Shown here one piece after another: positions 491 through 11,072 of a DNA stretch of 35,386 bases. The position numbers were made by a program, and so were the translations under genes. Positions within the stretch are counted from its first letter, which is position 1. Each line of letters opens with the position of its first letter. The notes below the pieces were generated by a model. The model worked only from the letters and a program-made list of their open reading frames with translations, was not told where the DNA came from and ran no database searches. This DNA is from Pseudoxanthobacter soli DSM 19599 (lineage in GTDB: Bacteria; Pseudomonadota; Alphaproteobacteria; Rhizobiales; Segnochrobactraceae), in the NCBI GenBank assembly GCA_945898215.1, contig CAMDHY010000038.1, positions 1-35,386 of the forward strand. Reading direction: 5' to 3'.

Positions 491-1726
491 CTAGGCGGCG
501 CTCGCCATCGCCCGGTCGCCGCTCGCCGGGAGGGGTTGCGGACGGCCGAGGAGGTAACCCTGCACGGCGTCGGCGCCGATGGCCTGCAGCACCCGCAGCT
601 CCGCCTCCGTCTCCACACCCTCGGCGACGATGACACTGCCGACGTCGTGGGCGAAGCCGATCAGCGCGGATGCCAGCGCCTTGCGGGCCGGGTCGCTGTC
701 GATGTCGCGCGTCAGGTTCATGTCGAGCTTGATGATGTCCGGGCGCAGCTGGAGGATGTGCTGCATGCTGGCGTAGCCCGCCCCGGCATCGTCGACCGCG
801 AGCCGGAAGCCGCGCGCCCGCAACGGCGCCAGGGCGTCCGACAGGGCGTCGTAGTCATCGACCGTGGCGTTCTCGGTGAGCTCGATGACGAGCCGGTCGG
901 CTGGCGCGATGGCGAGCAGCGCCGGGAGGGCGTCGCCGCGGATCGTCGCGGGCGAGGCGTTGATCGAGCAGTAGGCGCCCGCCGGAAGATCCGGCAGGAT
1001 CGCCAGTGCCTTGCGCAGCGCCGCGATCTCCAGCGCCTCGCGCAGGCCGACCTCGTCCGCCTCGGCGAACCAGACGTCCGGCGTCCGCTGCGGCTCGGCG
1101 CAGAAGCGCGACAGGCACTCGAACCCGACGATCTCGCGTCCCGGCAGCAGGTGGATCGGCTGGTGGACGATGAAGAAGCCGTCGTCGTCGATGAGCGACT
1201 GCACCCGCGCGAGACGCTCGCCCGCCGCCAGAGCTCGCTGCCGCTGGCGATCGATGTCGTAGGCCGCGAGGTCCGCGAAGGCTCGCATCATCTGCAGGTC
1301 GCGGCGGTTGAGCGATGTGTCCGGGTTCGGGCCGAGGCAGCAGAACATGCCGAAGACGGCGCCGTCCGAGAGCCGGATCGGCACGCTGACGTGGGCGCCG
1401 ATCGGCACCGCCGCCGTGATCGGCATCGCCATCGCGATCGGCTCGCGGGTGGTGTCGGGGATGAGCTCGGGCAGCCGGCCGGCGAGGATGTGGCGACAGT
1501 AGACGTCGTCGAGGGACCGCGAATCGCCGGGCTTGATCATCGCCTCCAGTCCCGGCGCGTCGACCTCGCGGAAGACCGACTGGCCGTCGACGAACTCCGA
1601 CACATAGGCGACCTGCAGGCCGAGATGGCGCCGCATCACCTGCAGCGAGCGCTTCACCATCCCCGTCGCTTCGCCGTCGGAGCGGATGGTCTCGGCGAGC
1701 AGGTTGCGAAGGTCGGAGCTGGGCAT
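491..1726 (-). CDS. GAF-EAL cyclic-di-GMP phosphodiesterase
   Basis: A 411-residue cytoplasmic protein from the ATG at 1726; a GTG at 1786 in the same frame would add 20 residues of low-complexity sequence and is less likely. Residues about 25-165 form a GAF-type sensor domain (YCRHI, VPIRL, FGMFCCLG). Residues about 175-400 form an EAL domain. The signature reads ECL (E203), and the metal and catalytic positions look intact: N256, E282 in IELTEN, D312-D313 in VDDAGAGYAS, K333 in IKLDMN, E369 in VAEGVET, Q389 in QGYLLGRP. By family knowledge it should hydrolyse c-di-GMP to pGpG under control of a ligand bound by the GAF domain. The ligand cannot be read from the sequence. There is no GGDEF domain. 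It is divergent from the RibD-type gene. Confidence 0.9.
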   Translation of the reverse strand: MPSSDLRNLLAETIRSDGEATGMVKRSLQVMRRHLGLQVAYVSEFVDGQSVFREVDAPGLEAMIKPGDSRSLDDVYCRHILAGRLPELIPDTTREPIAMAMPITAAVPIGAHVSVPIRLSDGAVFGMFCCLGPNPDTSLNRRDLQMMRAFADLAAYDIDRQRQRALAAGERLARVQSLIDDDGFFIVHQPIHLLPGREIVGFECLSRFCAEPQRTPDVWFAEADEVGLREALEIAALRKALAILPDLPAGAYCSINASPATIRGDALPALLAIAPADRLVIELTENATVDDYDALSDALAPLRARGFRLAVDDAGAGYASMQHILQLRPDIIKLDMNLTRDIDSDPARKALASALIGFAHDVGSVIVAEGVETEAELRVLQAIGADAVQGYLLGRPQPLPASGDRAMASAA

Positions 1727-1986
1727 GAGTCTCGGGTCCGGGGCGATGCGCGAGGCGGGGCGTCCGTGCGGGGCGTGACGCGACACGCTTGGGCACAGTT
1801 AGGGTCCAGCGATTCCAAAACGAAGGGAGGGCCTTCTGGTTCCCTCCGTTGGCGCGATGGGCGGAAGGCTGCGAGGGTCAGCCTACGCTCTACGCCTCGC
1901 ATCGTGAGACGGATGCACCGGCGGCAAAAAACGCGCGACCAGGCGGACGCCGCTTGGGCCTGCGACCTGAACCAAGGCGGGCCTCG

Positions 1987-3003
1987 ATGCGTACCGTGCT
2001 ACAAGAGCCCAACGGGAGGATGCCGCCCTTGCGAACGATCGCGCCGCCGTATTGGCCGAGGGATGCCGGCGAGCCACGCCGGGCAGCCGCGCGTCGCCCG
2101 GCGGATCCCTGGCGTCTTTATCTCGAGGCCCTCCAATCCGGGGCGCGAGTCCCGAACGCCTGCCGGCCCCTCGACGCCGTCTATGGTCCGCTGGCGCACG
2201 CCGACGCGACGCGCCCCTTCGTCGTCGCCCAGCTCGGCCAGTCCCTCGACGGCCGCATCGCCACCGTCACCGGCTCCTCGCACTACATCTCCGGTCCCGC
2301 GGCGCTGACCCACCTGCATCGCCTGCGCGCCCTCGTCGATGCCGTGCTCGTCGGCATCGGCACCGCGGTCGCCGACGACCCGCAACTCACCGTCCGTCAC
2401 TGCGCCGGCGAGAGCCCGGTGCGTGTCGTTCTCGATCCTTCTGGGCGTCTGCCGGCGGCCCTGCGCTGCCTCGCGGATGATGGCCCGCCGGTGCTGGTGA
2501 TCCGCCGCGCCGGACCGGGCGTGACGGCCTGTGACCGCATCGTGCCGGTGGCCGCCGGCGCCGATGGGCGCCTCGATCCGCGGGCGATCGTCGAGGCTCT
2601 GGCGGCCCGCGGCCTGCGGCGCATCCTCGTCGAGGGCGGCGCGCAGACCGTTTCCGGCTTCGTTGCCGCCGGCGTGGTCGACCGGCTCTACGTCACGGTC
2701 GCCCCGCTCATCATCGGCTCCGGCACCGAGGGCCTGCGCCTGCCGGAGATCGCGGCGCTGACCGAGGCGCTGCGGCCGCCGACGCGCGTGCATGTGCTCG
2801 CCGACGGCGACGTCCTGTTCGATTGCGATCTCGCAGCGGCCCGCCCGGCCGCCCTCGGAGGAGATGACGATGACGGCCGCCGTCTACTCGCCCACCGCCC
2901 GCCTGCTTCACTGGCTGACGGCGATCGCGGTGATCGCCGCGATCCCACTCGCCATCGCGATGAACAACGTGCCGAGCGGGCCGGTCCAGAACACGCTGTT
3001 TGA
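1987..3003 (+). CDS. Stand-alone RibD C-terminal-type (DHFR-fold) reductase
   Basis: The predicted protein is 338 residues from the ATG at 1987; another ATG at 2020 with GGGAGG immediately before it is possible. Residues about 77-283 match the RibD_C reductase domain: SLDGRIAT at 86-93, a long conserved block with ALVDAVLVGIGTAVADDP near 115-132, and ILVEGGAQ at 213-220. The deaminase half of bifunctional RibD is absent. The family reduces pyrimidine or pterin-like ring systems with NADPH and shares the dihydrofolate reductase fold. The domain ends near residue 283, yet the frame stays open for about 55 more residues that overlap the cytochrome b561 gene by 140 nt and look like out-of-frame translation. 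A stop in the third frame at 2865-2867 would give a normal ATGA junction, so a frameshift or base error is suspected. Its position beside a pterin-synthase-like operon suggests a role in that pathway rather than riboflavin synthesis. Confidence 0.8.
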   Translation: MRTVLQEPNGRMPPLRTIAPPYWPRDAGEPRRAAARRPADPWRLYLEALQSGARVPNACRPLDAVYGPLAHADATRPFVVAQLGQSLDGRIATVTGSSHYISGPAALTHLHRLRALVDAVLVGIGTAVADDPQLTVRHCAGESPVRVVLDPSGRLPAALRCLADDGPPVLVIRRAGPGVTACDRIVPVAAGADGRLDPRAIVEALAARGLRRILVEGGAQTVSGFVAAGVVDRLYVTVAPLIIGSGTEGLRLPEIAALTEALRPPTRVHVLADGDVLFDCDLAAARPAALGGDDDDGRRLLAHRPPASLADGDRGDRRDPTRHRDEQRAERAGPEHAV

Positions 3004-3406
3004 CCTGCACCGCTCGTTCGGGGCGCTCATCCTGCTCCTGGTGCTGATCCGGCTGCCCTACCGCCTGTTCGCTGGCGCGCCGCCGCCCGAACCCTCGCTG
3101 CCGCGCTGGCAGATCGGGCTGTCGCACGCCGTGCACTGGCTCCTCTATTTGTTCCTGCTGGTGATGCCGATCGTCGGCTGGGTCGGGACGTCCGCCTACG
3201 GCGCGCCGATCACGGTCTTCTGGCTGTTCCAATTGCCGGAGATCGTCGCCAAGAACGAGGCGCTCGCCGAGACGCTGCTCGACGCGCACGCGACCGCCGG
3301 CCTGATCATGGGCGGGCTGGTGGTCATCCACATCGCCGCCGCGCTCTATCACCGCTTCATCCGCCACGACGGCGTGCTGGCGCGGATGCTGCCCTCGGCG
3401 GGGTGA
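2864..3406 (+). CDS. Cytochrome b561 family membrane protein
   Basis: A 180-residue protein if it starts at 2864 (ATGACGATG); the second ATG at 2870 has better spacing from GGAGGAG at 2857-2863 and gives 178 residues. Four hydrophobic segments are seen at about 14-34, 49-68, 87-108 and 143-164. Histidines sit where the di-haem cytochrome b561 family has its axial ligands: H16 in LLHWLTA, H49 in FDLHRSFG, and H142 and H156 in the last helix. H88 and H91 are also present. It is expected to carry electrons across the inner membrane between quinone and a periplasmic partner. It overlaps or directly follows the RibD-type gene and is probably co-transcribed. Its stop is only 4 nt from the convergent methyltransferase stop. 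Its redox partner is not evident here. Confidence 0.87.
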   Translation: MTMTAAVYSPTARLLHWLTAIAVIAAIPLAIAMNNVPSGPVQNTLFDLHRSFGALILLLVLIRLPYRLFAGAPPPEPSLPRWQIGLSHAVHWLLYLFLLVMPIVGWVGTSAYGAPITVFWLFQLPEIVAKNEALAETLLDAHATAGLIMGGLVVIHIAAALYHRFIRHDGVLARMLPSAG

Positions 3407-3410
3407 TCCC

Positions 3411-4316
3411 TCAGCGGCGCGGCGGCGTCGCGAACAGGTCGGTGTGGCCGATGACGCAGCCCGCCGCCGTGCGGCGGTCGGCGAGCCAGCGCGCGGCGAC
3501 CGCTTCCTCGAGCCCGGCCGCCCGCGCGGCGCCGGCCCACCCCTCCGCCAGTTCGGCGATCAGGGCGGCGTGTTCCGGGCCGAGCCGCCACGGGCTCTTC
3601 TCCGTCCGAACGGTGTAGCCGCGGGCGGCAAGCGCCGTCGCGAGGACCCCCGATGCGTCCGGTCCGAGGGCCGGGCCGAAGCCCTTGTCGATGCCCTGGT
3701 GGCGGCGGAAGGCGTCGGCCACCGCCGCATCGTCTGGGTGGGGCGGCGACCACGTGCTCGTGCCGTCGACGTCGAGGGCGACGTAGACCGCCGCCCCCGC
3801 CGTCGCCACCGCGTCGGCGAAAATCTCGATGAAGGCGGCTGAGACGAGGTCGAACAGCGCCGAGGCGGTGACGAGATCCACGCCCTCGAGCAGCGCGGCC
3901 CAGTCGGCGCGGGCGAGATCGGCCTGCCGCCACGAGACGTCGACCGGCATCGTGCCGACATGCAGCGATAGGACGTGCAGCGACAGACCGCCGCCCGAAG
4001 CGGGGGGCGTCTCGGCCGGAGTGGAAACCCTTCCGGTGCCGGCGCCCCCGATCATGGTGGCGGACCAGGTTGCGAGGATCTGGCGTCCCGCCGCCACCAG
4101 AGAGCCGTCGTGGTCGACGAGCGTCCAGTGCTGCGCCGCTGGCAGGTGCGGCGAGAGCGCCCGCAGCGTCGAGCCCGTACCCGCCCCGAGATCGAGGATT
4201 CTCAGGGCGTTGGCACCGGATCCGAAAGCCGCGACGGCAGCGACGAGGGCGGGGCTGCGCGCCGCGCCGTCGGCCGGCTCGCGCAGCGCCAGCCAGTCGC
4301 TCGAGAAGCCGGTCAT
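3411..4316 (-). CDS. Class I SAM-dependent methyltransferase
   Basis: A 301-residue soluble protein. The start at 4316 is preferred because its ATG overlaps the stop of the glycosyltransferase by one base (TGATG), the usual form of translational coupling. The Rossmann-type SAM site is seen as LDLGAGTGS at 41-49, an acidic strand end LVDHD at 66-70, and later WRQADLA and DLVTASALFDL, matching motifs I, II, post-II and IV. A C-terminal half with KSPWRLGPEH and an Arg/Ala-rich helix probably forms the substrate pocket. The substrate cannot be read from sequence. It is the last gene of the four-gene minus-strand operon, so it may methylate a pterin-like or glycosylated product made by the upstream genes. 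A serine- and glycine-rich insertion near residues 88-110 is unusual. Confidence 0.82.
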   Translation of the reverse strand: MTGFSSDWLALREPADGAARSPALVAAVAAFGSGANALRILDLGAGTGSTLRALSPHLPAAQHWTLVDHDGSLVAAGRQILATWSATMIGGAGTGRVSTPAETPPASGGGLSLHVLSLHVGTMPVDVSWRQADLARADWAALLEGVDLVTASALFDLVSAAFIEIFADAVATAGAAVYVALDVDGTSTWSPPHPDDAAVADAFRRHQGIDKGFGPALGPDASGVLATALAARGYTVRTEKSPWRLGPEHAALIAELAEGWAGAARAAGLEEAVAARWLADRRTAAGCVIGHTDLFATPPRR

Positions 4317-5383
4317 CAGGATGCCTTCGCCAGGTGGTTCGCCGGATCGGAGGTCAGCGCCGCTGCGACCGCCGCCGCGGTGTCGTCCCACGTCGGCAGC
4401 GCCGCGCCGGCCCGGCGCGCCGCCGCCGCCGTCCGCCGCCTGAGCGCCGGATCGCCGAGGAGGCGGGCGAGCGCCGCGGCGGTGGCGTCGGCGTCGCCGG
4501 GCGCCACCAGCAGGCCCGCGTCGGCAGGAACGGTGTCGCGCACCGCGCCGCCGTCGCCGGCGACGATCGGCAGTCCCGCCGACAGCGCCTCGGCGAAGGC
4601 CATGCCGTAGCCCTCGTGGGTGGAGACGAGGGCGAACAGGTCGGCGCCGAGATAGTGGTCGAGCAGGGTGAGCGGTGTCACCGCGCCCGTCAGCCGGATG
4701 CGATCCTGAAGGCCGCGCTCCGCGATCGCGTGCCGGAGCGCCGCCGCACAGGCCGGGTCACGGCGGTCGTCGCCGACGAACACCGCCCGCCACGCGCGAT
4801 CGCGGATGCGGTCGAGGGCCGCCACGAGGGTGGCGTGGCCCTTGCGGCGCGTGATCGACGCCACCGTCAGGATGGTCGGCACGGCGCCGGTACCGACGGC
4901 CGGCGGCAGCCGGTCGGTGCCGGGCAGGGCGACCGTCAGGCGGTGCTCCGGAACGCCGTAGTCGGCGATGAGCGTGCGCGCGGTCGCCGGACTAGTGGCG
5001 ATCACTGCGGCGGCGGTCGCGAGCGCGGCCAGCTCGGTGGCGGCGATGGCGGCCGCCTCGGTGTCGCTGCGGCCGCCTTCGAGGGCGAGAGGGTGGTGGA
5101 CGAGCACCGCCACTGGTCGCCGAAGTGCCTGCAGCCGCTCGGCCGGCAGGGCCCCGAACGCGAGGCCGTCGACGAGGACGACGCCGTCCGCCGGCACCGA
5201 TGCGATCGAATCGAACGCCGAATCGATCGAATCATGAGCCGGCTCAGGAAAATCGGCGGGCAGCGGGATGAGGCGCGCCGACCAGCCCCGGCGGCGCAGC
5301 GCCGCCACCAGGGCCCGGTCGTAGGCGTAGCCTCCGGTGACGGTTTCGGGATCACCCGGAACCATCAGAAAAAGCTCAGGCAT
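4316..5383 (-). CDS. GT4 family glycosyltransferase (GT-B fold)
   Basis: A 355-residue protein with the GT-B two-domain layout of family GT4. An N-terminal glycine-rich acceptor-side loop (TGGYAYDRAL, 16-25) is followed by the linker ITRRKGH at 177-183, which supplies the basic residues that bind the donor phosphates. The EX7E motif is E257 to E265 in STHEGYGMAFAEALSAG. No membrane segment or signal is seen, so it is cytoplasmic. Its start overlaps the end of the pterin-synthase-like gene by 8 nt and its stop overlaps the methyltransferase start. This ties it to a small-molecule operon rather than to cell-envelope sugar synthesis. Pteridine glycosyltransferases are known in cyanobacteria, so a pterin acceptor is plausible but unproven. 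Donor sugar unknown. Confidence 0.85.
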   Translation of the reverse strand: MPELFLMVPGDPETVTGGYAYDRALVAALRRRGWSARLIPLPADFPEPAHDSIDSAFDSIASVPADGVVLVDGLAFGALPAERLQALRRPVAVLVHHPLALEGGRSDTEAAAIAATELAALATAAAVIATSPATARTLIADYGVPEHRLTVALPGTDRLPPAVGTGAVPTILTVASITRRKGHATLVAALDRIRDRAWRAVFVGDDRRDPACAAALRHAIAERGLQDRIRLTGAVTPLTLLDHYLGADLFALVSTHEGYGMAFAEALSAGLPIVAGDGGAVRDTVPADAGLLVAPGDADATAAALARLLGDPALRRRTAAAARRAGAALPTWDDTAAAVAAALTSDPANHLAKAS

Positions 5384-5783
5384 TCGCCACCGGACCTTCG
5401 AACCAAGCCCGCGCTACATGCGATTCATGCAGGGTCACGCGGACCGAATCGAGGCCCTCGGACCCCGGCCCGAGGCGCCCGTCGCGGGCAGCCTCGACCA
5501 TCCGATCGAACACCCATCGGCAGAGGAATTCGGTCGTCGTCAACTTTCCCGCGAGCTCGGGCACCGCATCGAGGTTGCGATAGCTTAGCCGGCTCATGGT
5601 CTCCTTGAGCACGTCGGTGGCCCGGCCGATGTCGACGACGAAGCCGTGCTCCGTCAGCGTCGGGCGGAAGAAGGCGACGTCGACGACGAACGTCGCCCCA
5701 TGCAGGCCCTGGGCGGGACCGAACACCGGGTCCGGCAGGCTGTGCGCGATCATCATGTGGTCGCGGACTTCGACGGCATACAT
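5376..5783 (-). CDS. 6-pyruvoyl-tetrahydropterin synthase / QueD-like protein lacking canonical catalytic residues
   Basis: A 135-residue protein from the ATG at 5783, preceded by GGGAGACC. The length and order of elements match the PTPS/QueD T-fold family. H14 (MIAHSL) and H28 (LHGA) correspond to two zinc histidines. GFVVDIGRA at 48-55 matches the usual G-VVDF block, TTTE at 82-85 matches PTxE, and E120 in LHES matches the pterin-anchoring glutamate. However, the third zinc histidine is Ala30 (HGA instead of HGH), the nucleophilic cysteine of CxxxHGH is Ala24, and the Asp-His pair before LN is Ser67-Tyr68. Pterin binding may therefore be kept while normal PTPS or QueD chemistry is not. The gene overlaps the GT4 gene by 8 nt and lies 78 nt after the dehydrogenase, in one operon. 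Confidence 0.82.
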   Translation of the reverse strand: MYAVEVRDHMMIAHSLPDPVFGPAQGLHGATFVVDVAFFRPTLTEHGFVVDIGRATDVLKETMSRLSYRNLDAVPELAGKLTTTEFLCRWVFDRMVEAARDGRLGPGSEGLDSVRVTLHESHVARAWFEGPVANA

Positions 5784-5861
5784 GGATTCGGTCTCCCGTT
5801 TTCGTTGGGTCGGCGGCATACGCGGCCGCGACTGGGTCGGATCGACTAGCGTGGTAAGGCG

Positions 5862-6896
5862 TCAGTCGTAGCGGACGACGATGCCGAGTGCGCCGCCGCC
5901 GGGGGCGAGCGCCGCCGGCAGCCGGCGAGGCAGGTCGGCGAAGGTGATCTCGGTGTCGAGCAGTACGTCGAGGCACGGATCGTCGAGAAGATCGAGCGCC
6001 TTCTCGAGACGCCGGCGGTAGCTCCACCGCGGCCGCCGCGACGGCGAGACGCTGCCGACCTGCGACCCCACGAGCCGCAGGCGCTGCGAGTGGAAGGCGC
6101 CGCCGAGCGGGGCCGCCACCGTGCCCTCGCCGTACCACGACATCTCGATGATCGCGGCCTCAACTCCGGCCGCGGCGATGGCGTTGGCGAGTCCCGGCGC
6201 CGAGGCGGAGGCGTGGAAGACGACGTCACAGTCACCGGGGCAGTCGTCCGGCAGGGCGAAGCGGCAGCCGAGCGCCGCGGCAACGGCGGCGCGCTCGGGG
6301 ACGATGTCGACGAGCGTCACCGCGGTGCCGGCGATGCGTGCAACGAGGCTCGCGACGAGGCAGCCGACGAGGCCGGCTCCGACCACGGCGACGCGGTCGC
6401 CGGGGCCGACGGCGCCGTCCCACACCGCATTCAGCGCCGTTTCCATGTTGGCGGCGAGCACGGCGCGGCGCGGCGGAATGCCGCCGGGCACCGGCACCAG
6501 CATCGTCGTCGGGGCGGTAAACACGTCTGCGTGAGGCACCAGCGCGAACACCGTGCGGCCGGCGAGATCGCCCGGCCCGTCCTCGACCGTGCCAACGGCG
6601 GCGTAGCCATACTTCACCGGAAACGGGAAGGCGCCCTGCTGCGCCGGCGCCCGCATGCGGCCGTGTTCCGAAACCGGCACGCGACCCGCGAGAACCAGCC
6701 GCTCCGTGCCGCGGCTGACCCCGCTGAACAGGGTCCGCACCCGCGCCTCGCCGGGTCCGACCGGCGCGACGGACTCCTCCCACAGGTCCACCCGGCCCGG
6801 CGCGACGTACCAGAGGGCGCGGGCAAGCGCTCGCCGGGGCGGCCCGTCGCCTGCCCGCATTTCGGCCTCTTGCGTCGCGGAGTGTTCGCCCATCAT
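5862..6896 (-). CDS. MDR-family (BchC-like) dehydrogenase without the usual zinc ligands
   Basis: A 344-residue protein starting at one of two adjacent ATGs (6896 or 6893), with GCGAGG a few bases upstream. A longer frame to 6962 lacks a ribosome site. The N-terminal GroES-like half has SGVSRGTERL (58-67) where zinc alcohol dehydrogenases have CGSD, and KYGYAAVG (95-102) where they have GHE. The four-cysteine structural zinc lobe is absent. The C-terminal half has the nucleotide-binding glycine motif VVGAGLVG near 171-178. The overall pattern (GTERL, FPFPVKYGYAAVG) recalls zinc-independent members related to BchC and threonine-dehydrogenase-like proteins. It probably uses NAD(P)H to oxidise or reduce a side chain. 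It is the first gene of the minus-strand operon that continues with the PTPS-like, GT4 and methyltransferase genes. Confidence 0.82.
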   Translation of the reverse strand: MMGEHSATQEAEMRAGDGPPRRALARALWYVAPGRVDLWEESVAPVGPGEARVRTLFSGVSRGTERLVLAGRVPVSEHGRMRAPAQQGAFPFPVKYGYAAVGTVEDGPGDLAGRTVFALVPHADVFTAPTTMLVPVPGGIPPRRAVLAANMETALNAVWDGAVGPGDRVAVVGAGLVGCLVASLVARIAGTAVTLVDIVPERAAVAAALGCRFALPDDCPGDCDVVFHASASAPGLANAIAAAGVEAAIIEMSWYGEGTVAAPLGGAFHSQRLRLVGSQVGSVSPSRRPRWSYRRRLEKALDLLDDPCLDVLLDTEITFADLPRRLPAALAPGGGALGIVVRYD

Positions 6897-6951
6897 GGTC
6901 CTCGCGTTCGATCCCAAGTCGAATACCACCGACAGGACGATAACCCCCGAG

Positions 6952-8841
6952 ATGTCGACCACGTCTGGTTATAGGCCGTCGCGCCCGCCGCGCCACGACG
7001 CCCCGCCCGGCGCGTCCCCCGAGGGGCCTGCGGCCGCGCTGTCGATGGTTCCCGCCGACCCGGCGTGGACGCCCGCCGATCTGCAGCCCAGGGCGGTCGT
7101 CGCCCGCCGCCGCCTCGTCATGGCGACGCTGGAACTCGGCACGCTCGCAGCCCTCACCGCCGGCCTGTCGGTGCTGCTCGGCCACGGCGGCTGGTCCGTC
7201 CTCGACGGCGTGCTTCTCGTTACCTTCCTGCTTTCGACGCCGTGGACGGTGATCGGCTTCTGGAACGCCGTCATCGGCTTTGCGATCCTGCACGGCACCC
7301 GCGATCCGATGGCGGTGGTGGCGCCTTTCCTGTCGCGGGCCCACCCGGACGATCCGATCACGGCCAGGGTCGCGCTGGCGCTCTGCATCCGCAACGAGGA
7401 CCCCGACGCCGTCTTCGCCCGGCTCTCCGTCATGCGCGAGGCGCTCGACGCGACGCCGTGGGGCGAGCGCTTCGTCGTCGTCGTGCTGTCGGATTCCTCG
7501 AAGCCCGAGATCATTGCCGCCGAGGAGGCCGCCGCGTCGCGCCTGTCCGCCGGCTCCCGTCATGCGGGCTCGGTCCGCTACCGCCGCCGCACCGACAACG
7601 CCGGCTTCAAGGCCGGCAACATCCGCGAGTTCGTCGACCGCGCCGGCGACGAGTTCGAGTTCATGATCACGCTGGACGCCGACAGCCTGATGTCGGCCGA
7701 CGCCATGCTCGAACTCGTCCGCGTCATGCAGGCGACGCCGCGTCTCGGCATCCTGCAGAGCCTCGTCGTCGGCCGCCCGGCCGAGAGCGGCTTCGCCCGC
7801 ATCTTCCAGTTCGGCATGCGCCATGGCATGCGCAGCTACACCACCGGCAGCGCCTGGTGGCACGCCGACTGCGGTCCCTACTGGGGCCACAACGCCGCGA
7901 TCCGCATGGACGCCTTCCGCGAGCACTGCCGCCTGCCGGCGCTGCCGGGGCGGCCGCCGCTCGGCGGGCCGGTGCTGTCGCACGACCAGATCGAGGCCGC
8001 GATGATGCGCCGCGCCGGCTACGAGGTGCGCGTGCTCGCCCGCGAAGGCGGCAGCTTCGAGGAGAACCCGCCGGCGCTGCCGGACTTCCTTAAGCGCGAC
8101 CTGCGCTGGTGCCAGGGCAACATGCAGTACTTCAAGCTGATCGGCATGCCGGGCCTGAAGCCGGTCAGCCGGCTGCAGGTGCTGCTCGCCATCCTGATGT
8201 ATTTCGGCGCCGCCGGCTGGGTGGTGTTCATCGCCGCGAGCGCCTTGAAGGTGTTCGAGGCGCCGGCGAGCGAGCCGTTCCCGGCCGCCTTCGGCGTCTT
8301 CTTCTTCTTCGTCATCTTCACGATGAGCCTGATGCCGAAGCTCGCCGGCGTCGCCGACATCCTCGTGCGCGCCTCCGAGCGGCGGCGCTACGGCGGCGGC
8401 ACCCGCCTCGTCGCCGGCGCCCTGATCGAGGTCATTGCCTCGACCCTGATGGCCCCGGCGGTGGCGCTGGCCGACACGATCTTCATGATCGGCCTCCTGT
8501 TCGGCCGCCGCGTCGGCTGGGAGGGGCAGAAGCGCGACGGCTACCGCCTGACCTGGGCGCACGCCGTCCGGGGCTTGTGGCCGCAGGTGGTCTTCGGCGC
8601 CGCCGTCGGTGTCCTGCTCGCGGTGATGATGCCGGGCGTGCTGCCCTGGGCCTCGCCGATGCTCGCCGGCCTGATCGGCGCCCCGGTCTTCGCGGTGGCG
8701 ACCGCCGCCCCGGGCTTCGGCCGCTGGCTCGCCACGCGCGGCCTCTGCGCCATTCCCGAGGAGTTCATCCCGGACGCGACGCTGGTCGCCGCCGAGACGG
8801 CGGAGGCGGGTGAGCGGCGCGACGAGCGCATGGCGGCTTGA
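6952..8841 (+). CDS. opgH: Glucans biosynthesis glucosyltransferase MdoH/OpgH
   Basis: A 629-residue inner-membrane GT2 protein from the ATG at 6952; an ATG at 7045 giving 598 residues is an equally credible start, as no clear ribosome site favours either. Two transmembrane segments near 58-78 and 84-113 precede the cytoplasmic catalytic domain. That domain shows D181 (LSDSS), DADS at 242-245, HDQ at 344-346 and DLRWCQGN at 383-390, the D,D,D,(Q)RW set of processive GT2 enzymes in the form typical of OpgH. Several hydrophobic segments follow from about 408 onward. It makes the beta-glucan backbone of osmoregulated periplasmic glucans from UDP-glucose. The usual partner opgG is not in this window. 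It is divergent from the dehydrogenase gene and convergent with the broken hydrolase. Confidence 0.92.
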   Translation: MSTTSGYRPSRPPRHDAPPGASPEGPAAALSMVPADPAWTPADLQPRAVVARRRLVMATLELGTLAALTAGLSVLLGHGGWSVLDGVLLVTFLLSTPWTVIGFWNAVIGFAILHGTRDPMAVVAPFLSRAHPDDPITARVALALCIRNEDPDAVFARLSVMREALDATPWGERFVVVVLSDSSKPEIIAAEEAAASRLSAGSRHAGSVRYRRRTDNAGFKAGNIREFVDRAGDEFEFMITLDADSLMSADAMLELVRVMQATPRLGILQSLVVGRPAESGFARIFQFGMRHGMRSYTTGSAWWHADCGPYWGHNAAIRMDAFREHCRLPALPGRPPLGGPVLSHDQIEAAMMRRAGYEVRVLAREGGSFEENPPALPDFLKRDLRWCQGNMQYFKLIGMPGLKPVSRLQVLLAILMYFGAAGWVVFIAASALKVFEAPASEPFPAAFGVFFFFVIFTMSLMPKLAGVADILVRASERRRYGGGTRLVAGALIEVIASTLMAPAVALADTIFMIGLLFGRRVGWEGQKRDGYRLTWAHAVRGLWPQVVFGAAVGVLLAVMMPGVLPWASPMLAGLIGAPVFAVATAAPGFGRWLATRGLCAIPEEFIPDATLVAAETAEAGERRDERMAA

Positions 8842-9812: not shown

Positions 9813-11072
9813 ATGAAGCGAGCGATTCTCAGGGCCGCGGCTGCCCTCTGTCTGGCGCTGTCGGCGGGCGGTGTTCCGACCTTCGAGGTGTGGGCGCAGG
9901 GCGCCGAGGACTCCGCGCAGCTCGGGCCACGGCCGTTCTACCTCGTCGACCGGATGGCGGACGGCGAGCTCAAGCAGGCGCTCGCCGCCTGTGCGACCGG
10001 GCCGTTCACCCCGTCGAGCTTCTCGATCGGCCACCGCGGCGCGCCGCTGCAGTTTCCCGAGCACACGCGCGAGGGCTATCTCGCCGCCGCCCGCATGGGC
10101 GCCGGCATCCTCGAGTGCGACGTCACCTTCACCAAGGACCGCCAGCTCGTCTGCCGGCACTCGCAGTGCGACCTGCACACCTCCACCGACATCCTGGCGC
10201 GACCGGAGCTCGCCGCGAAGTGCACGACGCTGTTTACCCCCGCTGACCCGGCGACGGGCAGGAAGGCCGAGGCGAAGTGCTGCACGAGCGACCTGACGCT
10301 CGCCGAGTTCAGGTCGCTGCAGGGCAAGATGGACGGCGCCAACGTCAACGCCACCACCGTCGCCGACTACATGAAGGGCACCGCCGGCTGGCGCACCGAC
10401 CTCTATGCCTCGACCGGCATGCTGATGACGCACGCCGAGAGCATCGCGCTGTTCAAGGACCTCGGCGTGCAGTTCACGCCCGAACTCAAGGCACCGAGCG
10501 TGCCGATGCCGTTCGACGGCGACTACACCCAGGACGCCTACGCCCAGCAACTGATTGACGAGTACAAGGCCGCCGGCATCGACCCGGGGGACGTCTTCGC
10601 CCAGTCGTTCCAGCTGCGCGACGTGCTCTACTGGCTGAAGGCCGAGCCGGCGTTCGGCGCGCAGGCGGTGTTCCTCGACGACCGCGACGAGACGCTCGCG
10701 GGCTTCGACGCGATGAAGCCGGAGACCTGGAAGCCGACGATGCAGGAGCTCGTCGGCCAAGGCGTCGAGATCGTCGCCCCGCCGACGCACGTGCTGGTGA
10801 CGCTCGACCCGCAGGGCAAGATCATGCCGTCAGCCTACGCCAAGGCCGCGAAGGATGCCGGCCTCGACATCATCACCTGGACGCTGGAGCGCTCCGGCAC
10901 GCTCGCCGACGGCGGCGGCTACTATTTCCAGAGCGTCAAGGATGCCATCAAGGGCAGCGGCGACACCTACGTGCTGCTCGACGTGCTGGCGAAGGACGTC
11001 GGCGTGCGCGGTGTCTTCTCCGACTGGGCCGCCACCGTCACCTATTACGCCAACTGCATGGACCTCGACTGA
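9813..11072 (+). CDS. Secreted glycerophosphodiester phosphodiesterase
   Basis: A 419-residue protein from the ATG at 9813, with GCGAGG seven bases upstream and a signal peptide ([20 protein letters not shown], cleavage near 28). The catalytic core of the GDPD TIM barrel is clear: HRGAP at 74-78, the E83-H84-T85 block, E101 and D103 in ILECDV, H116, and E224 in FTPELKAPS. Towards the C-terminus [10 protein letters not shown] matches the last barrel strand. By family knowledge it hydrolyses glycerophosphodiesters to glycerol-3-phosphate and an alcohol, here in the periplasm or outside the cell. It has more cysteines than usual (for example C60, C102, C114, C119, C137, C156, C157), which suggests disulfides in the exported protein. 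It has no evident operon partner. Confidence 0.9.

Follow-up and report, generated by a model that had tools for sequence, protein, structure and literature searches.

The closest described relatives of the gene cluster analyzed here belong to PTPS-IV, a subfamily of COG0720 defined by the signature FGPAQ (PMC5445326). PF00925 and PF01872 genes were reported in the neighborhood for cluster 62 of PMC5445326, where PF00925 was labeled as GTP cyclohydrolase I including FolE2, whereas the Pfam name is GTP cyclohydrolase II. For PTPS-IV, unpublished work on archaeal F420 is cited in PMC5041015. No assigned function for PTPS-IV was found in the open-licence literature, including the accessible text of PMC5041015 and PMC5445326, and that text does not name a GT4 glycosyltransferase, a methyltransferase (MT), a medium-chain dehydrogenase (ADH) or an MdoH-like protein as its partners. 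The closest solved relative of the protein studied here is SCO6650 (PDB 3d7j), deposited as an uncharacterized protein.

The window, i.e. the whole analyzed stretch of 35,386 nucleotides from Pseudoxanthobacter soli DSM 19599, contains a PTPS-IV gene within a conserved cluster whose genes look as if they direct the synthesis, from GTP, of a small pterin-like molecule that carries a sugar. No report on the identity of this product was found in the open-licence literature.

Gene layout and conservation of the cluster

Profile searches of the window gave the same families and gene layout for the minus-strand run and the plus-strand pair as the first description (Table 1). The run ADH-PTPS-GT4-MT occupies positions 3411-6896, and the genes for RibD_C and cytochrome b561 face it from the plus strand; their predicted convergence on the run was borne out by the coordinates and the Pfam profiles. 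The tail of the RibD_C frame, 3' of the profile end, overlaps the b561 gene, and the MT stop lies 4 nt from the ends of the convergent genes. Overlaps of 1 to 8 nt had been claimed for the whole run. They exist between GT4 and MT (1 nt) and between PTPS and GT4 (8 nt), but ADH and PTPS are separated by a gap of 42 to 78 nt, depending on the choice of the PTPS start. The genes placed inside a boundary at 6896 do belong to the set, but the divergent MdoH-like gene just beyond it, also part of the conserved set (49 of 60 loci), had been missed.

Table 1. Features of the cluster and its borders in the window
Feature	Position	Strand	Remarks
RibD_C-type reductase, no deaminase domain	1987..3003	+	PF01872, 5.5e-41; profile match stops at 2841
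Cytochrome b561	2870..3406	+	PF01292, 1.6e-31; facultative member
Divergent class I SAM-dependent methyltransferase	3411..4316	-	Methyltransf_25, 24.2 bits, weak, under cut-off 27
GT4 glycosyltransferase	4316..5383	-	PF00534, 1.7e-27
PTPS-IV T-fold protein, signature FGPAQ	5376..5783	-	PF01242, 1.1e-20
Medium-chain dehydrogenase (ADH) without zinc ligands	5862..6896	-	Leads minus-strand run
ADH/MdoH-like divergent intergenic region	6897..7050	.	Putative promoters, inferred
MdoH/OpgH-like membrane GT2	6937..8841 (approx.)	+	Start codon uncertain; profile match from 7051

The neighborhood was compared around PTPS orthologues of other genomes. From the same order, 67 strong loci besides that of the window were collected, and G024, G038, G072, G083, G136, G182 and G205 were left out. 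The remaining 60 loci contained ADH and GT4 in 59 cases each, MT in 54, RibD and b561 in 28 each, and GTP cyclohydrolase II (GCHII) in 22. Of 43 loci in other orders of the class, 36 (all but G281, G409, G411, G482, G492, G563 and G626) were compared; ADH was present in 35, GT4 in 34, MT in 31, RibD in 27 and GCHII in 13. Nine loci from outside the class (11 without G733 and G887) all contained ADH, GT4 and MT, together with RibD in 8 and GCHII in 3. The PF01872 gene of the window and the PF00925 (GCHII) gene in 22/60 and 13/36 loci of relatives reproduce the neighborhood described for PTPS-IV. ADH, PTPS and GT4 were the most constant genes, and the cluster was conserved across the class and the phylum and in part in a second phylum. 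In four of the nine outside-class loci GT4 and MT formed one fused protein, which supports the view that both act together. The gene order was rearranged at some loci (e.g., L086 and L088, with GT4 displaced), and the PTPS-IV gene of L041 had no core partners. The same lack of core partners was seen on two Streptomyces plasmids, whereas in Methylosinus trichosporium OB3b the cluster lies on pOB3b1; the plasmid sample comprised 11 of 20 records, 2 of the 11 without annotation. One comparison covered the best 80 of 583 relatives, and the loci named from it form an uneven sample.

Properties of the encoded enzymes

FGPAQ and the longer FGPAQxxHGA were present in 60 of 60 PTPS-IV sequences (that of the window and 59 orthologues), and the motifs CxxxHGH, CxxxxxHGH and ExxHGH of PTPS-I, -II and -III were not matched. 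One Streptomyces plasmid homologue had FGSAQ instead of FGPAQ. In all 60 sequences Ala replaced the Cys of CxxxHGH and the third zinc His, and in the LDHxxLN columns, aligned also to human PTPS, Asp was replaced by N, A, R, T, S or K and His by Y or F. In PTPS, the Asp and His of LDHxxLN and three zinc His residues have functional roles. Because these catalytic and zinc residues are lost, the protein is unlikely to carry out PTPS or QueD chemistry; classical QueD or BH4 chemistry was rejected on this ground, and the predicted PTPS/QueD-like function gave way to membership in PTPS-IV. The T-fold and the invariant glutamates are retained, and both the fold and its invariant residues have been preserved in two phyla. 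The predicted model (pLDDT 95) gave a TM score of 0.93 to SCO6650 and of about 0.7 to QueD, and the identity with the 3d7j chain was 53% over the structural alignment.

For ADH no Pfam match was obtained at 0.001. The best NCBIfam match was bchC (TIGR01202) with 34.3 bits, and an assignment as BchC was rejected because the family cut-off is 291. Aligned to a Palleronia protein that bears the annotation zinc-dependent ADH, the window's protein has Ser in place of the ligand Cys and GYA in place of GHE, and it lacks the four-Cys lobe of the structural zinc, so the designation as a zinc dehydrogenase did not survive. Ordinary alcohol oxidation is disfavored because the zinc ligands are lost. Judged by these residues, it is likely that neither the PTPS nor the "zinc" dehydrogenase does its annotated job. 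In a structural comparison of ADH, polyol dehydrogenases were among the tied top rows (Z 30-32). E257 and E265 of the GT4 motif EX7E were invariant in 23 of 23 aligned proteins.

The RibD_C protein is of the stand-alone kind, and its best solved match is a RIB7/archaeal-type enzyme, 6p8c, named 2,5-diamino-6-ribosylamino-4(3H)-pyrimidinone 5'-phosphate reductase. It scored 116.4 bits against TIGR01508, under the cut-off of 186.45. It is thus a candidate for the enzyme that reduces what GCHII makes. The same genome has another RibD_C match, in a 427-aa frame on contig C125, which could serve riboflavin.

The GCHII of the relatives is of the PRK08815 type, the Agrobacterium pAt copy passing NF006456 (471.1 versus 464 bits), and C269, C280 and C282 were invariant in 24 of 24 sequences. 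No cluster-type GCHII was found in the window's own assembly (97% complete). Neither of the two PF00925 matches in this genome was of the cluster type; one was the back half of RibB without the Cys ligands, and the other we take to resemble the uracil-catabolism type. It had been predicted that the precursor comes from elsewhere. No GCHII was found in the window, but the set of the relatives includes one; as the window starts at contig base 1, its absence there says little. With a cyclohydrolase of type II, the riboflavin kind, in the set, there is no need to postulate the usual dihydroneopterin as precursor. In S. fungicidicus a creatininase-family gene adjoins GCHII. The idea of an Actinomycetota deformylase was abandoned, as the creatininase-family gene reached 141 bits with MftE and 37 bits with ArfB, both below cut-off.

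Among 249 genomes, cluster-type RibD was present in 50 of 67 with PTPS-IV and in 1 of 182 without it; for cluster-type GCHII the corresponding numbers were 38 and 7. The profiles behind these counts were built from cluster members, the 300-bit GCHII limit was chosen after viewing the list, and the Fisher values are inflated by shared ancestry. Five of the seven PTPS-IV-negative genomes with cluster-type GCHII belonged to the genus g33, and nine of the 67 positives had neither gene. In the genus g38, RibD and GCHII occurred in both PTPS-IV positives and in none of four negatives; a mere housekeeping role of GCHII in riboflavin synthesis is weakened, as the cluster type was present in this genus only with PTPS-IV. 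In the genus g37, RibD occurred in four of four positives, which had no cluster-type GCHII, and in none of four negatives. In G065, G206, G070, G106 and G229 the RibD-GCHII pair was present although it lay at least 50 kb from PTPS-IV, indicating that the association is more than one of position.

The MdoH-like GT2 passed NF003958 (523.8 versus 419 bits) and NF003962 (500.8 versus 328 bits) and fell short of NF003963 (811 versus 884 bits). At the limit used, 43 of the 45 matches to its group in 199 genomes came from PTPS-IV-positive genomes, and on a Neorhizobium plasmid the gene lies 2 nt upstream of ADH in the same direction. Across 190 loci it was found in 109 and a CDP-alcohol phosphotransferase in 39, with both in 3 and neither in 45, of which 17 were stretches of less than 19 kb. 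In other lineages the phosphotransferase occurs with a flippase-like protein in place of the MdoH-like GT2, and either arrangement suggests a membrane or periplasmic end point. OpgG was detected in 12 of 16 genomes searched, once adjoining the RibD-GCHII pair (G166), and gave no match in the other 4; it was absent among the conserved neighbors of the cluster.

A candidate pathway and its alternatives

We consider it fairly probable that the genes form one dedicated pathway leading from GTP through GCHII, RibD_C, ADH with PTPS-IV, and GT4 with MT to a pterin-like product. GCHII, whose gene adjoins the cluster in part of the relatives, would open GTP to the pyrimidinone phosphate after which the reductase 6p8c is named. 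The stand-alone RibD_C would then reduce the ribosyl to a ribityl group in the archaeal/fungal order with the 2-amino group retained, giving a 2,5-diamino-6-ribitylamino-pyrimidinone. ADH, lacking zinc, and the T-fold protein PTPS-IV may convert this to a pterin-like (2-amino-4-oxo) product, to which, in the presumed order, GT4 would add a sugar and MT a methyl group. With the MdoH-like GT2, or elsewhere the phosphotransferase and the flippase-like protein, and with b561, the product could have its final place within the membrane or beyond it, and it may take part in redox reactions. Of the reduced, glycosylated and methylated pterin-like molecule originally predicted, glycosyl and methyl transfer are still the best guess, in agreement with the GT4-MT fusion; the final pterin ring is conjectural.

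Only tentatively can a more specific reading be offered, a second route to pterins that is free of GTP cyclohydrolase I and uses GCHII, RibD_C, ADH and PTPS-IV. After the opening of GTP and the reduction by RibD_C, the dehydrogenase would oxidize C2' to a ketone. GTP cyclohydrolase I reaches the same keto intermediate by Amadori rearrangement. PTPS-IV, without the usual zinc site, would condense the 5-amino group with C2' and close the ring; the pterin would be glycosylated, methylated and brought to the membrane or across it, and b561 could there pass electrons to it or accept them from it.

An accidental neighborhood of unrelated genes, which the shuffled gene order at some loci might suggest, is hardly credible. 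Conservation across many genera, from the class to part of a second phylum, excludes chance; the linkage counts, the gene fusion and the co-occurrence of RibD with PTPS-IV, even in unlinked copies, refute it, and the predicted conserved unit stood. Synthesis or modification of a periplasmic glucan or a membrane glycolipid as the task of the cluster, with the GTP-derived part as a minor decoration or regulator, is very unlikely. The frequency of the MdoH-like GT2 and of the phosphotransferase among the 190 loci, and the OpgG matches in 12 of 16 genomes, one of them beside the RibD-GCHII pair in G166, would fit this, but the loci with neither enzyme, the genomes without an OpgG match and the near constancy of ADH, PTPS and GT4 argue against it.

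The source of the pterin could also be FolE (GTP cyclohydrolase I), which would supply dihydroneopterin for PTPS-IV merely to bind or present and for GT4 and MT to decorate, with GCHII and RibD_C as fellow travelers for riboflavin. The T-fold and glutamates kept in PTPS-IV, the riboflavin role of GCHII and the nine positives without cluster-type RibD and GCHII are consistent with this. It is nevertheless unlikely, as a general riboflavin role does not predict the near absence of cluster-type RibD from PTPS-IV-negative genomes, and the 427-aa frame could serve riboflavin. Rather doubtful, too, is an end product other than a pterin, namely an analogue of a pyrimidine, lumazine or flavin with sugar and methyl groups attached. 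Toxoflavin-type pathways combine GCHII- and RibD-like enzymes with methyltransferases, and the riboflavin-type enzymes and the missing PTPS catalytic residues agree with such a product; but a 2-amino-4-oxo ring system fits better with the constancy of ADH, PTPS-IV and GT4, higher than that of the other genes, and with a PTPS fold that has its invariant residues in two phyla.

The analysis assigns a full partner set to the PTPS-IV (SCO6650) family. Two annotated enzymes are probably misnamed, the PTPS/QueD for its lost residues and the ADH for its lost zinc ligands. If the ring closure is true, pterins would have a second biosynthetic origin.

Comparison with known systems

QueD/PTPS-I, PTPS-II and PTPS-III share the T-fold and PF01242 with the window's PTPS, but the catalytic Cys, the third zinc His and the Asp and His are replaced in the latter and its 59 orthologues. 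BchC, a dehydrogenase of the bacteriochlorophyll pathway, is the top NCBIfam family for ADH, with a cut-off far from reached. The NF003958 cut-off links the MdoH-like GT2 to the OpgH/MdoH glucan glucosyltransferases; in contrast to these, its group is, at the limit used, nearly confined to PTPS-IV-positive genomes and has no OpgG in the conserved neighborhood. The archaeal/fungal riboflavin route shares the stand-alone RibD_C, often paired with GCHII, whereas the RibD_C of the cluster sits with ADH, PTPS-IV, GT4 and MT; among the conserved families, whose lists are only partly annotated, no lumazine or riboflavin synthase was recognized. With PTPS-IV and SCO6650 as far as described in the accessible text, the cluster has FGPAQ, the fold and the PF00925/PF01872 neighbors in common, and the neighbor labeled there as cyclohydrolase I/FolE2 is corrected to cyclohydrolase II.

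Gene layout and conservation of the cluster

The predicted arrangement, with the genes for the dehydrogenase (ADH), PTPS homologue, GT4 glycosyltransferase and methyltransferase (MT) on the minus strand and the RibD_C and cytochrome b561 genes converging on them, was borne out. Operon overlaps of 1-8 nt were found at two of three junctions (1 and 8 nt), while ADH and PTPS are separated by a gap of 42-78 nt. As the window starts at contig base 1, genes left of the RibD side may be off the contig. The GAF-EAL gene had no counterpart in 60 same-order loci.

Features of the cluster region in the window
Feature	Coordinates	Strand	Remark
GAF-EAL protein	491-1786	-	adjoins RibD
RibD_C protein	1987-3003	+	converges on minus-strand run
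Cytochrome b561	2870-3406	+	converges on minus-strand run
Methyltransferase	3411-4316	-	
GT4 glycosyltransferase	4316-5383	-	
PTPS homologue	5376-5783	-	
Dehydrogenase (ADH)	5862-6896	-	
MdoH-like membrane glycosyltransferase	past 6896		divergent from ADH

The RibD reading frame runs 134 nt into the b561 gene (RibD tail, window 2841-3003). The tail past the conserved Asp-Cys comprises 58 aa, compared with at most 32 aa in the measurable relatives (68 of 96); the stop codon may have been lost, or the extension may stem from a frameshift or a misassembly.

Within the order, 67 of 249 genomes contained a strong PTPS match (E ≤5.8e-17; next match 8.9e-6). Orthologues were present in 45 of the 385 genomes sampled from the class (E ≤1.6e-28) and in 27 of the 398 sampled from the phylum, of which 11 lie outside the class. 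The protein clearly forms an orthologous group, here PTPS-IV. Conservation of the neighbourhood, which had been proposed as the check, was found for its core genes in the order, in the class and outside it. The 60 fetched same-order loci contained ADH (59), GT4 (59), MT (54), MdoH (49), RibD (28), b561 (28), FkbM (27), GTP cyclohydrolase II (GCHII; 22) and a periplasmic hypothetical protein (20), and the 36 loci from the rest of the class ADH (35), GT4 (34), MT (31), RibD (27), GCHII (13), b561 (7), MdoH (6), FkbM (5) and the periplasmic hypothetical (1), some of the stretches being truncated at contig ends. All nine loci outside the class had ADH, GT4 and MT, with RibD in eight, GCHII in three, MdoH in two and b561 in none. 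In four of the nine (L214, L215, L217 and L220; L and G numbers denote loci and genomes) GT4 and MT form a single open frame of about 656-662 residues, a fusion linking their functions.

Co-inheritance, plasmids and putative membrane modules

The stand-alone reductase RibD and GCHII are co-inherited with PTPS-IV, as judged by matches to profiles made from cluster members (cluster-type) and by counts that ignore shared ancestry. Cluster-type RibD (E ≤1e-50) occurred in 51 of 249 genomes, namely 50 of 67 with PTPS-IV and 1 of 182 without, the latter (G122) being 56% complete. Cluster-type GCHII, at a threshold of at least 300 bits picked once the list had been inspected, was present in 38 of the 67 genomes with PTPS-IV and 7 of the 182 without, and nine PTPS-IV genomes lacked both. 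Within genus g38 RibD and GCHII were present in 2/2 positive and 0/4 negative genomes; within g37 RibD was present in 4/4 and 0/4, and cluster-type GCHII in no positive. In five genomes (G065, G206, G070, G106 and G229) the RibD-GCHII pair lies at least 50 kb from PTPS on the same contig, and the association thus goes beyond physical linkage. Of 199 genomes, 45 gave hits of the MdoH-like group (E ≤1e-150); 43 of these carry PTPS-IV, and the other two (G076, G111) both belong to g37.

The core was also located on plasmids of Methylosinus, Thiodictyon, Agrobacterium, Palleronia and Neorhizobium, and in Actinomycetota on a Microbacterium plasmid with RibD and a Streptomyces fungicidicus plasmid with GCHII, where RibD was absent from the gene listing of the region. 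In the partial gene tables of two further Streptomyces plasmids (L228, L229), PTPS had no ADH, GT4 or RibD within 9 kb, and a second PTPS-IV copy in G166 (L041) was without core partners. Neorhizobium plasmid pNCHU2750c (L236) carries mdoH, dehydrogenase, PTPS, glycosyltransferase and hypothetical genes in one orientation, the first two spaced by 2 nt. This plasmid was typed conjugative, and the cluster may therefore move between strains. On the Palleronia plasmid (L235) an inositol-monophosphatase-family gene and a PfkB kinase gene (4171-4974 and 9997-10887) surround the cluster and are candidates for phosphate or sugar handling.

Among 190 loci, 80 of which were the best 80 of 583 relatives, an MdoH-like GT2 (>400 bits) was present in 109 and a CDP-alcohol phosphotransferase in 39. 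Only three loci (L126, L219, L220) have both, and 45 lack both; 17 of these 45 are stretches shorter than 19 kb. Of the 19 loci with flippase-like LPG_synthase_TM genes, 18 also have the CDP-alcohol enzyme, as do 20 of the 22 that carry a gene resembling one annotated 'sulfatase' (without a Pfam match). All 46 loci with the periplasmic hypothetical have MdoH too, and at L068 the two share a single frame; of the 68 loci with FkbM, 49 have MdoH and 16 have the CDP-alcohol enzyme. The two modules would be alternative means of delivering the product into or across the membrane, and lineage could explain part of the pattern. An OpgG match that begins about 190 nt after the GCHII match of an unlinked RibD-GCHII pair (G166:C15:73756-77265) hints at a tie to periplasmic glucan genes.

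GCHII and the proposed route

The cluster GCHII belongs to PF00925, in Pfam GTP cyclohydrolase II. An excerpt of PMC5445326 places PF00925 and PF01872 next to PTPS-IV, for which it gives the signature FGPAQ, and describes PF00925 as GTP cyclohydrolase I including FolE2. The naming matters because GTP cyclohydrolases I and II make different products. The Agrobacterium GCHII passed NCBIfam NF006456, three Cys were invariant in 24 aligned copies, and the Tyr of KxRAY was kept in 53 of 55 copies, the motif not being found in two. The S. fungicidicus GCHII (L232 12645-14138) reads RAM, with Met where Tyr is usual, and adjoins a creatininase-family gene. Met at this position yields the formylated product in Streptomyces. 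A profile search of the window's assembly found no cluster-type GCHII, which may be an effect of the contig edge. The only two PF00925 matches in this genome (L209 3650-4840, minus; L210 3128-4381, plus) were a RibB whose GCHII half has lost its Cys ligands and, apart from it, a GCHII homologue of a different type.

Among solved structures RibD_C matched 6p8c best (142 bits), which is named as a reductase of the GCHII product, followed by 2azn (136); bifunctional RibD chains scored about 120 bits and below. The dehydrogenase has an MDR fold, with several polyol and alcohol dehydrogenases tied at Z of about 31. It has lost both the zinc ligands and the structural zinc lobe; 'zinc-binding alcohol dehydrogenase' is therefore a misnomer. 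GT4 retains the EX7E glutamates.

The gene set, its co-inheritance, the GT4-MT fusion and the residue losses are observed; we infer every reaction of the pathway and its product. GTP would be converted by GCHII and RibD_C to a diaminopyrimidine, which would yield a pterin-like, glycosylated and methylated product; this is the best-supported account and is somewhat favoured. Its boldest version, a pterin route free of GTP cyclohydrolase I, seems rather unlikely. It would explain the joint occurrence of the four enzymes, and also why the PTPS-IV fold was kept and the old catalytic residues lost; the main point against it is the missing zinc of the dehydrogenase.

PTPS-IV compared with known proteins

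The function of PTPS-IV is given in an excerpt of PMC5041015 solely as unpublished work on archaeal F420. In an alignment of the window protein and 59 orthologues, with human PTPS as residue reference, FGPAQxxHGA was present in 60/60 sequences. In all 60, Ala stands in place of the Cys and the third zinc His of the usual CxxxHGH, and LDHxxLN has other residues at its Asp (N, A, R, T, S or K) and His (Y or F) positions. Both E85 and E120 are invariant, and one of them would be expected to anchor a pterin. The model (pLDDT 95) matched SCO6650 (3d7j) with a TM of 0.93 and an rmsd of 1.0, and QueD with a TM of about 0.7. SCO6650 reportedly is without zinc, the triad and PTPS activity, and is said to be able to bind a pterin-like ligand.
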